Part shown: positions 29,525-42,481 of the stretch, in pieces | How the letters are laid out: each line of letters opens with the position of its first letter | How positions within the stretch are numbered: position 1 is the stretch's first letter | Assembly (NCBI GenBank): GCA_029262235.1 | Contig: JAJCZU010000004.1 | Span: forward strand, 806,001 to 870,000 | Direction: 5' to 3' | DNA length: 64,000 nucleotides | Origin: Candidatus Eiseniibacteriota bacterium | Lineage (GTDB): Bacteria; Orphanbacterota; Orphanbacteria; Orphanbacterales; Orphanbacteraceae | The notes under the pieces: model-generated | What the model saw: the letters and a program-made list of their open reading frames with translations, nothing else | Databases searched by the model: none | What the model was told of the DNA's origin: nothing | Translations under genes and position numbers: made by a program

Positions 29525-31912
29525 CTAGCGAATCAGGACCATCTTGCGTTCCTGCTTCGTCTTGCCCGACGTCAGCTTGTAGAAATAAATGCCGCTCGCG
29601 ACTTCGTGATCCGAGTCGCTCCGGCCGTTCCACGTGACCGTGTGCGAACCTTCGTCCATGCGGCCCTGCTCGAGCGTGCGTACGCGGCGCCCGGCGAGGT
29701 CGAATACGGCGAGTTCCACGTCGCCCGCGGTCGGCAGGCTGAAACGAATGCTCGTTGTCGGGTTGAACGGGTTCGGGCTGTTCTGCTCGAGCACGATGCG
29801 CGTCGGCGCCGCATCGTCGCCCGTCGCGACGTCGGTCGACACCGTCACGTCGCCGCGGATGCCGAAGTCGTCGATGCCGGCTTCCACGATCGAGCCGGCG
29901 CCGTCATCGCGCGCCACGAAGCGCATCTTGATGCCGTTCGACGGCGCGACGAAGTCCGCGATCAGGAAACGGATCTCTTTCCATGAGTAGTCGCTTGCGA
30001 GCGTGTTTTCGACTTCGGTCCAGGTCTGGCCGCTGTCGTTCGAGATCGAAACGACCCACGGGTCGGTGCTCGGCGCGCCGCCCGCATCGTTCACGAACCA
30101 GCGGTAGTAGATGATTTCGGGATTTGTGAGCCCCGTGACATCGTAGACACCCGTATAGAGCGAGGTCTTGCCGCCGTCGACGTCGTTGTCGCCCAGTCCG
30201 CCGTTGACGGGTGTCTGTCCCGTGATATAGCACTGGGCGTTCGTTTCCGAGTGATCGTCTTCCGGCTGCGCCGCCGTACCGCGCGGGTTCACCTTTTCCC
30301 ATATGCCGGTCGTGGCGTTGTCGGTGGCCTCGTCGTCCACCGTGAACGGCGCCGGGTCGCCCATGTCGAGCGCCAGGAACCACGCGTTCAGGCTGAAGTC
30401 GAGCGTTTCGGGAACGCCGGCCGTCACGTTGACCTGCACGGTGTCCGGATCGAAACCGAACGCCGTAACCGCAACGGTCCACGTTCCGCCGGGGACGGCC
30501 GTGAGCGCGTAGTCGCCGGCCGCGTCGGTCAGATCTTCACGCGGCTGTCCGATAATCTCCACCTTCGCGCTGGCGATGGCCGTGTCCGGGCCGGCCGATG
30601 TCACGGTGCCCGAGATCGTCGAGGTCGGCGCCGGAACGAGCACGAAGTCCTGCGTTACGGTCGAACCGGAAACGATGGCGACGGACGCGGTATCCGAAAG
30701 GAAACCGAAGCCGCGCGCGATGACGGATTTTACGCCTGTACCGGCCTGCACGGCGTAGTTGCCGCCGGCGTCGGTCGAGTCGTTCAAGCCTTCGCCGTCG
30801 AGAATGACGCGGCCCGGGACCGGGGCGCCCGACGTGTCGGTGACCGTGCCGGCGATTTCGCCCGCGCCCGGTTCAACGCGCCAGAGATAAAGGCCCGTTG
30901 CGAAGTCGCTGCCGATGATCGTGCCGGACGGAAGGAACGGATACGCGCCCCAGAGTCCGTCGTAGAGGCCGCCGCCCGCCCACGTGTCCCAGTATCCGAT
31001 TTCGGTCGGGGCGAGCGGGTTCGTGAAGTCGACGACGCGCAGGCCTTCCGTATAGTACGAAGCGTACATCGTGTCGTTCTTGACGAAGACGTTGTGCACC
31101 GAGATGCCGGCGCCGGTTCCTACGCGGTAATCGGAAACCTGCGAGATGCTCGCGAGGTTCGAAATGTCCCACGTGCGAACCCACCCGCTGGCCTGCTCGT
31201 CCGCGGAAAGCATGTAACCCGGCGTGTTGTCGAGAAGCCAGGTCGCGTGGCTCGACTGCCCGTACGACTGCGTGGCGAGATTGACAACGCTCGCGGGATT
31301 CGAAACGTCGAGAATGCGGAATTCGTTATTGCTGATGCAGCCGGCGTACGCCGTGTCGTTCCGGACGTACACATCGTGAATGTAGCGCGTTTCCCACGAA
31401 CCGATTTCCGTCGGATTCACGGGATCGGTGCCGATGTCGAGAATGCGCATCCCGCCCGTCGCCAGGTTCGACCCCACGATGTACGCGCGGTCGGTCGCTT
31501 CTTCGATGTAGATGTTGTGCGCCGTGCTGAACCCGATGTACGTGTTCACGAGGGTCGGGTTGTCGGGGTCGGAGAGGTCCACGATCTGCAGTCCGCCCCC
31601 GGCACCTTCCGTAACGATGTAGCAGTAGGTGCCGTTCGTCTTCATGTCGCGCCACGTCGACCCGACACCGGAAATGTCGCCGACGAGCACCGGGTTGTTC
31701 GGATCGGTCACGCGATAGAAGAGCGTGCCCGTGTTGTAGCCGATGATGGCGTACTCTTCGCCGCCCGCGGCGTACCCCCAGCAGTCATTGTATGCGGGCT
31801 TGCCCTCATCGGCGTTCGCGAGCAGGATGACGTTCGAATAGTTCTGAGCGAGCGCGCTGCCCGCCGATGCAAGGAACAGGGCGCAAACCGCCGCTGGTAT
31901 CAATCGCTTCAC
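29525..31912 (-). CDS. Choice-of-anchor-B family secreted protein 3, with carboxypeptidase-regulatory-like domains
   Basis: 795 residues. GTG at 31912 is preceded by GGAGGG at six bases; an upstream in-frame GTG lacks this. Signal peptide (1-21, ALA), an LVIVD propeller (to about 340), then two carboxypeptidase-regulatory-like Ig domains (AGTVTDTSGAPVPG and SGTVTSAGPDTAIASA), a jelly-roll-like segment with Asp/Asn-rich strands (about 530-700) and a FlgD-like sorting domain ending RKMVLIR. The extra modules suggest a longer surface stalk than in the two paralogues. Ligand unknown. Confidence 0.87.
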   Translation of the reverse strand: MKRLIPAAVCALFLASAGSALAQNYSNVILLANADEGKPAYNDCWGYAAGGEEYAIIGYNTGTLFYRVTDPNNPVLVGDISGVGSTWRDMKTNGTYCYIVTEGAGGGLQIVDLSDPDNPTLVNTYIGFSTAHNIYIEEATDRAYIVGSNLATGGMRILDIGTDPVNPTEIGSWETRYIHDVYVRNDTAYAGCISNNEFRILDVSNPASVVNLATQSYGQSSHATWLLDNTPGYMLSADEQASGWVRTWDISNLASISQVSDYRVGTGAGISVHNVFVKNDTMYASYYTEGLRVVDFTNPLAPTEIGYWDTWAGGGLYDGLWGAYPFLPSGTIIGSDFATGLYLWRVEPGAGEIAGTVTDTSGAPVPGRVILDGEGLNDSTDAGGNYAVQAGTGVKSVIARGFGFLSDTASVAIVSGSTVTQDFVLVPAPTSTISGTVTSAGPDTAIASAKVEIIGQPREDLTDAAGDYALTAVPGGTWTVAVTAFGFDPDTVQVNVTAGVPETLDFSLNAWFLALDMGDPAPFTVDDEATDNATTGIWEKVNPRGTAAQPEDDHSETNAQCYITGQTPVNGGLGDNDVDGGKTSLYTGVYDVTGLTNPEIIYYRWFVNDAGGAPSTDPWVVSISNDSGQTWTEVENTLASDYSWKEIRFLIADFVAPSNGIKMRFVARDDGAGSIVEAGIDDFGIRGDVTVSTDVATGDDAAPTRIVLEQNSPNPFNPTTSIRFSLPTAGDVELAVFDLAGRRVRTLEQGRMDEGSHTVTWNGRSDSDHEVASGIYFYKLTSGKTKQERKMVLIR

Positions 31913-32027
31913 GTGGTACCCTCCAAAACAGGTCACAGGACGTTGTTGTATTTTTCTAACCGGGAGATGGGCCGTGGGAGTTGCGGCTGTGCAACAGATT
32001 GTAACACAAGCGTTTGGTGTCGCCTAG

Positions 32028-35295: not shown

Positions 35296-35679
35296 ATGAG
35301 AAGTGCCGGGAAGATTCTGGGAATTTTTTTGATCATTGCGTTCATGGCGTGTCCGCTGGCGAATGCTTCGGAAACGCAGGTGCTCAACAGTCAGGAACTT
35401 ACTCTGAAGATGGTCGAGCGCGAAGCCGATGACGACGCCCTGCGTGCCGGCATCCGTACGCTGCTCGAGCGACCCGAGGTCAGCGAAGCCGCTTCGCTGC
35501 TCGGTCATGATGCGAATCGCCTGGCCGACCGTGTCGAAACCCTCGAAGGGGAAGCGCTGACGGATGCGGCCGCTCGCGCCGCCGCCGTGCAGGATGCGCT
35601 CGTCGGAAGCGACAGCGTCATCATTATCAGTTCGACGACGTTGATTATCATTCTGCTGCTTATTCTGATTCTTGCGTAG
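35296..35679 (+). CDS. PA2779-like small protein, partner of the C39 peptidase
   Basis: 127 residues: signal peptide (about 1-24), a conserved central stretch of paired helices (SQELTLKMVEREADDDALRA, then LERPEVSEAASLLGHD) and a hydrophobic C-terminal helix (VIIISSTTLIIILLLILILA). This matches the small PA2779-type proteins encoded next to PA2778-type C39 peptidases. It may be the substrate or partner of the protease-exporter encoded next, whose TTG start overlaps its end by eight bases. GGAGG lies seven bases before the ATG. Confidence 0.75.
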   Translation: MRSAGKILGIFLIIAFMACPLANASETQVLNSQELTLKMVEREADDDALRAGIRTLLERPEVSEAASLLGHDANRLADRVETLEGEALTDAAARAAAVQDALVGSDSVIIISSTTLIIILLLILILA

Positions 35680-37873
35680 GCACCGGATCTCCGGTCAGGC
35701 CGGCTCACCGGCGGAAGTCGAACCTTTCGCCGGTGAGCGTCTTCCTTCCGTCCGCCGCCGCCCCTGTTTTTTCCTCTGCGGTATCCTGGTCTCCCTGCTG
35801 ACGCTGCTTCTGCCGGGGCCGACCCGCGCGTTCGGCGCGGCCGATCGCGCCGCGGTTCACGACGTCCCGTATTTCGCCCAGACTCCGCGCCTCTGTGGTG
35901 GAGCGGCGGCGGCGATGCTGCTTCGTTACCACGGGGACCGCGCCGCCCGTCCGCTCGGCTTCACTTACCTGCTCGATGCCAGTCGTCGCGGGATTGCGAC
36001 GACGGCTCTCGCGGACGGTGTCCGCAGTCGCTCGTTCGTCGTCGATGCCGGTGACGGCCGCACGATGCGCCAGTTGCAGGAACGGCTGCGTACGCGACCG
36101 GTCGTCGTTCTCGTCGCCGCGGGCGGAAAGGATCAGTATCACTATGTAGTCGTACTCGGGGTTCGGGACGATCACGTGATCGTGCACGACCCTGCCGTCG
36201 GGCCCGGGCTGTCGCTCGCCGGGGATGAGTTCCGCGCGCGATGGGAGAAAGCGCGACACTGGATGCTCGATGTCCGGCCCGCGGCGGCGGAGAGTACGCA
36301 AACCACGGAAACCACGGAAACGGCGCACCCCCGATCCCCGGAGACCCCGCAAGCCCCGCAAGCCCCGCGAACCCCGCGAACTACCGATCGCACGCTTCAA
36401 CCCGACGATCAGAAGACGCCTGCGCCCGATTCCTGCGAGATCGAAGCGGTACGCGCGGTCGCACTCGCCCGCGCCGGACATCTCGATGCTGCCGGGGATC
36501 TGCTGAGCGCCCTTGCGGATCGCGGCTGTGCCGGGGCGTGGCGCGAACTCGCTTCGGTAAGGATTCTGGCTGACCGGTACGAAGATGCCGTTGCCGCCGC
36601 TGAGAATGCGGTCGCCGTCCGTGCGGACGACGATCACGCCCGGGACGTTCTCGGAACGGCGCACTACCTGCGCGGAGACACGCCCGCCGCGCTCCGCGCC
36701 TGGAATCGGATGGGGCGACCGCTCGTGTACTCGTTTTCTGTGAGCGGGGGCAGCCCCCGCACGCGCCGCACGGTTCACACGGGCACGCCCATCGCCCGCG
36801 ACTCGATGTTGACGGCGTCCTCGCTCCGTCATGCGGTCCGCCGGGCGCGGGCGCTTCCGTCCGTTGAAACCGCTTCGGTCCGCATCTCCGCCGCCGCGCC
36901 GGGGGAGGTTCACGTGCGGGCCGTGATCGTCGAGCGGGCGCCCGCCCGTTCGGAGTTGTTGCGAACGGCGCTGCGTGCAACGGCGGACCGGGAAGTGCGG
37001 CTCGTGTTCCCGAGCGGTCTCGGGCGTGCCGATGTCTGGGAAGCGCGTGCCCGCTGGTGGGCGCGTGCGCCGAGTTTCGAACTGTTTCTTCATGTGCCGG
37101 ACGCCCCGAAGCGCGGGTGGGTTCTTGAAGCGGGGGGAGGACGGGATCGCCAGTGGTACCGCACGGCGGGCGCGGGCGTCGTCGAAGAGCGGACCCGGAC
37201 CGCCGGTATCGCGGCTTCGTCCTGGATCGCGTCCGATCATCATCTGCAAGTGGGGCTTCGTCATTTCGAAAGTGAATCGCGCGCGCGCGGCGGCAGGCGT
37301 TCCCGCGATTTCGTTTCCGTCGAACTCGGATGGCGGGCATCGGCGCTGCACGACCGGCTCCGGTTCGGCGCCCGAGTCGCGCCCTGGTTCGTACCGGGTG
37401 ACGGCCGTACGCTTGTCCGCGCTTCGCTGTCCGGTTCGTTTCGGCTCGAAAAGTCGCGGCGGGCCGATCTTGCGATCCGGGCCGGCGGCGACTGGGTCGA
37501 CGCGAACTCTCCCCGCTACCTGTGGACGGGCGCGGGTACCGGGCTCGGAAGACCCCACCTGTTTCGCGCGCACCCCCTGATCGAGGACGGCACGCTCGAT
37601 GGGCGCGCGTTCGGGCGTTCGCTGTTGTTCGCCGGGCTCGAGGCGACGTTCTGGCGATCGTTCCCGGGGTTTCCGGTCGGGGTGGCGACGTTCGCGGACG
37701 GCGTCTCGTCCGCCTCCGAACCCGGCGCGGCCCCGTTTCGATGGGATGCCGGGGCCGGCGGGCGCATCGCCGTTCCCGGGACGACCGCGGTTCTCGCAGT
37801 CGACTGGGCGCGCGGGCTGAACGACGGCCAGGAAGCCGTCTCGGCCCGTCTTTATTCGATCTCACAATTCTAG
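35672..37873 (+). CDS. C39 peptidase-TPR-POTRA-like-Omp85-like fusion
   Basis: 733 residues as read from TTG at 35672 (start uncertain; no ATG before the catalytic part). Hydrophobic segment 33-48; C39 cysteine-peptidase domain about 65-200 with Cys75 (RLCGGAA), His157 (HYVVVLGV) and Asp173 (HDPAVG); Pro/Thr linker 208-250; TPR-like helices 255-345; a POTRA-like module 350-424 (SGGSPRTRRTV, ARALPSVE, VIVERAP); and a barrel-like C-terminus (430-733) whose end (GVATFADG, AGGRIAVPG, ...YSISQF) resembles Omp85/BamA. PA2778-type proteins normally stop after the TPRs. Coupled to the PA2779-like gene. The POTRA/barrel assignment is my reading, not a search result. Confidence 0.72.
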   Translation: MRRHRISGQAGSPAEVEPFAGERLPSVRRRPCFFLCGILVSLLTLLLPGPTRAFGAADRAAVHDVPYFAQTPRLCGGAAAAMLLRYHGDRAARPLGFTYLLDASRRGIATTALADGVRSRSFVVDAGDGRTMRQLQERLRTRPVVVLVAAGGKDQYHYVVVLGVRDDHVIVHDPAVGPGLSLAGDEFRARWEKARHWMLDVRPAAAESTQTTETTETAHPRSPETPQAPQAPRTPRTTDRTLQPDDQKTPAPDSCEIEAVRAVALARAGHLDAAGDLLSALADRGCAGAWRELASVRILADRYEDAVAAAENAVAVRADDDHARDVLGTAHYLRGDTPAALRAWNRMGRPLVYSFSVSGGSPRTRRTVHTGTPIARDSMLTASSLRHAVRRARALPSVETASVRISAAAPGEVHVRAVIVERAPARSELLRTALRATADREVRLVFPSGLGRADVWEARARWWARAPSFELFLHVPDAPKRGWVLEAGGGRDRQWYRTAGAGVVEERTRTAGIAASSWIASDHHLQVGLRHFESESRARGGRRSRDFVSVELGWRASALHDRLRFGARVAPWFVPGDGRTLVRASLSGSFRLEKSRRADLAIRAGGDWVDANSPRYLWTGAGTGLGRPHLFRAHPLIEDGTLDGRAFGRSLLFAGLEATFWRSFPGFPVGVATFADGVSSASEPGAAPFRWDAGAGGRIAVPGTTAVLAVDWARGLNDGQEAVSARLYSISQF
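36344..36379 (+). repeat. Nine-base tandem repeat in the fusion linker
   Basis: Four consecutive nine-base units (ACCCCGCAA, GCCCCGCAA, GCCCCGCGA, ACCCCGCGA) encode the TPQAPQAPRTPR linker between the C39 and TPR parts. It is a likely site of slippage-driven length change. Confidence 0.75.
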
Positions 37874-42066: not shown

Positions 42067-42127
42067 GGTCCGATCCTAGGCGTGTGGAATGGGAGTGTCA
42101 ACCGCGGGGGAGTGTGGGGTGAGGAGT

Positions 42128-42217
<90 letters not shown>

Positions 42218-42236
42218 CTCCTCACACACTTGCGCG

Positions 42237-42304
42237 AAGGGAAGGAAGGGAAGGAGGGGAAGGAAGAGGAAGGAAGAGGAAGGAAGGAAGAGGGGAAGGA
42301 AGAC
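42237..42304 (+). repeat. GGAA-rich purine tract
   Basis: About 68 bases of almost only A and G with repeated GGAA, GGAAGA and GGGAAGGA units. With the poly-G tract it fills most of the gene-free stretch 42067-42481 upstream of the exchanger gene. Confidence 0.85.
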
Positions 42305-42481
42305 GGGCTCTCCTTCCTCTCTTCATGTCTTCGAGCGCGAGGTCGATGCCGGACGAAACGCGAGACAAGCCTCGGCGAGAAGGAGATTCCGTGGAAAACT
42401 CTCCAGGAGACGAGAGCTGGTGAACGTGGAAGAATAGACTGAGAAGCATTGTGGACACGTCCGCGCAGGTGAGGACACACG

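Follow-up and report, generated by a model that had tools for sequence, protein, structure and literature searches.

Can a single polypeptide both cut a substrate and pass the product to the outer membrane? This question is raised by two adjacent genes on the forward (+) strand of the window, that is, the whole 64,000-nucleotide stretch of DNA that was analysed. The upstream gene (35296..35679) encodes a small protein of 127 aa with a signal peptide, a helical middle and a hydrophobic C-terminal tail, for which the best NCBIfam model is PA2779_fam (NF033919; 1.8e-6, 28.1 bits, under the curated cut-off of 40 bits). The downstream gene (35672..37873, TTG start) encodes a 733 aa fusion of a C39 peptidase, TPR, a POTRA domain and an Omp85-type barrel, and its start overlaps the stop of the PA2779-like gene by 8 bases, an arrangement that fits translational coupling. 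No Rfam match was found near the gene pair. Elsewhere in the window, positions 29525-31936 (- strand) encode a large secreted protein in which, by eye, LVIVD-type-like propeller repeats and a C-terminal FlgD/T9SS-like sorting-type domain can be read, and a low-complexity, strongly G-rich/C-rich stretch at 42076-42442 carries overlapping open reading frames on both strands that are probably spurious.

At the N-terminus of the fused protein, a signal-peptide-like segment of the Sec type, RRRPCFFLCGILVSLLTLLLPGPTRAFGA (35750..35836, +), which was read from the sequence and has equivalents at the N-termini of relatives, precedes the C39 peptidase domain (residues 64-205; 35861..36286, +). This domain is recognized by Pfam Peptidase_C39 (38.3 bits, 1.4e-9; cut-off 22), and the best NCBIfam model for the fused protein is C39_PA2778_fam (NF033920, an equivalog model; 1.7e-12, 47.3 bits, under the curated cut-off of 150 bits). 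In the alignment, none of the 14 intact fused proteins (all of the 15 identified except that from G006, which is split by contig ends) departs from the active-site Gln, Cys, His and Asp (Q70, C75, H157 and D173). The TPR region that follows (residues about 255-345; 36434..36706, +) gives weak Pfam matches in the window protein and contains a Cys pair (C255 and C286) that is kept in 13 of the 14 intact proteins and would suit an oxidising compartment. Taken alone, the window protein shows no Pfam match past residue about 345 and no Pfam match to a patatin domain; as a single-sequence query against genome contigs, it produced the C39 match only.

The rest of the chain is identified through profiles of its relatives. 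Pfam Omp85 is matched by the C-terminal part of 9 of the 15 fused proteins (best 2.7e-5), and the only other Pfam family matched by the C-terminal parts of the relatives is POTRA, found in one relative, at the same place and below the cut-off. A PDB search in which the query profile was built from the 15 C-terminal parts retrieved mostly Omp85 proteins (best E-value 2.6e-5): TamA, BamA, the TLR1789 POTRA and outer membrane proteins whose POTRA and barrel pieces appear in order. Over the Pfam cut-off, at least 11 further members of the Omp85 family (L018-L028), a high number, are encoded by the window genome (G000) itself. As an own-genome reference, 11 Omp85 proteins were collected with PF01103 and the six best were used in hhalign. 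The 14-protein profile aligned with this reference from the POTRA through the end of the chain (98.9%, 359 columns, E-value 3e-17), as did the POTRA alone (92%, 5e-7) and the barrel alone (97%, 3e-11), all of these E-values being those of single comparisons; the reversed-sequence controls gave nothing (0.4-0.85). When the C-terminal profile was run blind against 395 genomes in the phylum of G029, it matched two proteins only, both BamA-like, with several POTRAs, VRGY, a terminal Phe and an OmpH/Skp-like gene downstream; considered as further fusions, these two matches were rejected as BamA. Given that this blind scan found BamA only, and together with the Pfam, PDB and hhalign matches, residues 350-733 can be assigned to a POTRA domain (residues about 350-424; 36719..36943, +) and an Omp85-type barrel (residues about 425-733; 36944..37870, +), with a single POTRA between the TPR and the barrel. 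AlphaFold2 run on the single sequence of residues 346-733 reached a pLDDT of 33, too low for use, and only in the POTRA part can the expected order strand-helix-strand-strand be made out, with low confidence.

We consider the domain anatomy of the fused protein to be as good as certain at the sequence level. The sequence-only reading had proposed the same single chain with a POTRA-like module and a barrel-like C-terminus, and both parts of that proposal are borne out. Its appeal to the C-terminal Phe as a barrel feature does not extend to the family, in which only the window copy ends in Phe. The L6 motif of the barrel is altered: Arg is kept in all fused proteins, and in place of the (V/L)RG(F/Y) of Omp85, 13 of the 15 have LRAH or FRAH and the other 2 LRGH or LRGR (Arg-Ala-His, R632-H634, in the window protein; 37565..37573, +), both RAH and RGH being found in the unfused relatives.

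The suggestion that the same fusion and gene pair might be sought in other genomes proved productive. In the genome samples searched, the fused architecture recurs in 15 proteins from 14 genomes of three phyla, all of them paired with a PA2779-like gene. The window genome has a second pair (contig C3, 539883-541910; 132 aa and 706 aa), the large protein of which shares 32% identity with the window protein over residues 49-725. Fused genes were detected in 5 of 80 genomes in the phylum of G031 (G031, G153, G168, G169 and G104) and in 7 of 297 genomes in the phylum of G308 (G604, G706, G692, G730, G636, G746 and G477). In the tree of C39 domains, a branch supported at 99/98 sets all the fused proteins apart; the C3 copy clusters with proteins from another phylum and the window copy is divergent, such that the two copies are not nearest relatives. 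Matches are absent from same-genus and most same-family genomes, so that gain of the fused genes by transfer is possible; no relatives were found on viral contigs.

In 11 genomes from the phylum of G308, the same parts occur unfused, as a C39 gene followed directly by a separate gene for a TPR-POTRA-barrel protein; G682, in which the parts lie in two overlapping frames, was left out of this count. A PA2779-like gene adjoins the split system in 8 of the 11 genomes. The C-terminal parts of the fused and unfused proteins are homologous (390 columns, E-value 2.6e-18), which, along with the adjacency of the split genes, indicates that the peptidase and the barrel belong to one system, fused or not. 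Other phyla, for example, that of G029, have the C39/PA2779 pair without a barrel. Two tandem PA2779-like genes lie ahead of the C39 gene in G710, which has a split system (L100, 6874-7868), and two are likewise found in G437, which has the barrel-less C39/TPR type (L037, 2460-3482).

The PA2779-like partner, likewise anticipated in the sequence-only reading, is the most constant feature of these loci. It directly adjoins the fused gene in 15 of 15 cases, on the upstream side in most and on the downstream side in G604 and G706. No further neighbour is shared by most fused loci, and the window genome has exactly two PA2779-like genes, one next to each fused gene. The family shares a layout of a helical middle, GG and then 22-26 strongly hydrophobic residues with the pattern TIVISxTTxIII. 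The window partner was aligned with 7 relatives, each adjoining a fused gene; its tail consists of the 22 residues DSVIIISSTTLIIILLLILILA (35611..35676, +), preceded by Gly-Ser (residues 104-105; 35605..35610, +) as the candidate C39 cleavage site. GG stands directly before the tail in 14 of the 15 partners, the window partner with its GS being the other one; P4, the fourth residue ahead of the cut, is hydrophobic in 14 of 15, as is usual at known C39 sites. In the unfused systems, the corresponding site of the partner is mostly AG. C39 peptidases commonly cut at GG and sometimes at GA (PMC5557850). An enzyme with its dedicated substrate is the simplest reading of the gene pair.

We tentatively propose that the two genes form an outer-membrane processing machine, a scenario that we place slightly short of an even chance. 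Given the Omp85 fold, the barrel would reside in the outer membrane, with everything N-terminal of it facing the periplasm. The PA2779-like protein would be exported by Sec, its hydrophobic tail keeping it in the inner membrane; the periplasmic C39 domain would cut it after GG/GS, just ahead of the tail; the TPR and POTRA would hand a product to the barrel, the freed helical part being a more likely candidate than the tail; and the barrel would insert this product into the outer membrane or move it across. The partner is likely to be cut at GG/GS, and transport by the barrel is possible. The earlier idea that one protein cuts a leader and exports the product is compatible with all of the observations; as for the site, an N-terminal leader had been envisaged, and the position of GG before the hydrophobic tail points instead to cleavage close to the partner's C-terminus.

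The two-gene machine is supported by the fused architecture with an active site intact in 14 of 14 proteins, by the partner present at every locus, one per enzyme in the window genome and with no other conserved neighbour, by the GG with hydrophobic P4 in nearly all partners (14 of 15 with GG), and by the 11 genomes in which peptidase and barrel are adjacent separate genes. A precedent is the Fap system of Pseudomonas, in which the periplasmic C39 peptidase FapD, with its active-site Cys required, acts in secretion via FapF, a barrel of the outer membrane (PMC5557850). Against it stand the GS of the window partner, the mostly AG sites of the unfused systems, the altered L6 (mostly RAH) and the case of PlpD, an Omp85 enzyme fusion whose enzyme part stays in the periplasm, with no translocation of it found (PMC11116518), so that transport cannot be assumed for the C39-Omp85 fusion. 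PlpD, a periplasm-facing homodimer of patatin-POTRA-barrel chains without passenger export (PMC11116518), is also the model for the main rival, in which the barrel and POTRA hold, and perhaps dimerise or gate, a periplasmic C39 peptidase with the PA2779-like protein as its substrate and nothing is transported. The altered L6 motif of most fused proteins is in line with such an anchored protease, but the unfused systems keep a dedicated TPR-POTRA-barrel protein, and a pure anchor would be useless to a separate peptidase unless the two were complexed; we regard this explanation as rather unlikely.

The role of the partner could also be different. Being small and helical, with a single hydrophobic segment, and present in one copy per enzyme at loci with no other conserved neighbour, it might be an inner-membrane tether or regulator of the C39-Omp85 protein, the true substrates being encoded elsewhere in the genome. 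The conserved GG and hydrophobic P4 directly before the tail, however, make up a typical C39 site, and this assignment strikes us as distinctly improbable. It is harder still to envisage type Vd-like secretion, whereby the barrel would display the C39-TPR part on the cell surface to act on foreign or surface proteins: the order of enzyme, POTRA and barrel is that of PlpD, for which surface secretion was first proposed (cited in PMC4104836), but that mode is contradicted for PlpD itself (PMC11116518) and would leave the constant partner without a role, which makes it very improbable. The probability that two genes were joined by a sequencing error, or that the barrel is not of the Omp85 type, appears negligible: the architecture recurs in 15 proteins with C39 domains in one clade, including the second pair in the window genome, and the Omp85 homology runs along the entire C-terminal part. 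An assembly join was rejected on the same grounds, and a plain barrel without a POTRA was rejected by the hhalign result for the POTRA alone together with the Pfam matches.

Among known systems, BamA and TamA have a POTRA and barrel homologous to those of the fused protein, which differs from them in its one POTRA, altered L6 and N-terminal peptidase and TPR; BamA has several POTRA domains, typically five. The GG before a hydrophobic C-terminal tail in the partners resembles GlyGly-CTERM proteins, a resemblance only, the protease in that system being the rhomboid rhombosortase and the tail ending in basic residues. PA2778/PA2779 pairs (NF033920/NF033919) likewise combine a C39 peptidase with TPR and a small protein that has a signal peptide and a hydrophobic C-terminus, but the known PA2778 type stops after the TPR, without POTRA or barrel, and the window proteins score under both NCBIfam cut-offs. 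A literature search turned up no paper describing what PA2778/PA2779 do; the fusion links this uncharacterised type of pair physically to the outer membrane. In PlpD and the other patatin-Omp85 (type Vd) proteins, a single chain likewise combines an enzyme with one POTRA and an Omp85 barrel, the enzyme being a patatin lipase without TPR rather than a C39 peptidase with TPR, and PlpD is not known to have a PA2779-like partner.

The Omp85/TpsB superfamily is defined by the Omp85 barrel domain, and among the ten bacterial Omp85 subfamilies surveyed by Heinz and Lithgow, the N-terminal parts are POTRA, WD40, metallo, patatin, lipoprotein or none, with C39 in none (PMC4104836). Our literature search found no paper linking C39 with Omp85, in agreement with the initial impression that no system of this form had been described. 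The C39-TPR-POTRA-barrel chain is a new architecture within known superfamilies and adds a protease-bearing subfamily to Omp85. Whether it also represents a novel outer-membrane system for secretion or insertion is more doubtful, although we consider it a realistic possibility; in such a system, with fused two-gene and split three-gene forms, a periplasmic C39 peptidase built into an Omp85 translocator would cut a dedicated small protein, tail-anchored, at its C-terminal GG and bring it to the cell surface. The closest functional parallel is Fap, where a periplasmic C39 peptidase (FapD) likewise works with an outer-membrane barrel (FapF), as separate proteins, with a trimeric autotransporter-like rather than Omp85 barrel and with amyloid subunits as substrates. 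The target of the peptidase is unclear even in Fap (PMC5557850), and the fusion offers a simple system in which to ask how C39 peptidases of the periplasm cooperate with outer-membrane barrels, a question that becomes directly testable given that one two-gene unit contains both the enzyme and a single candidate substrate.
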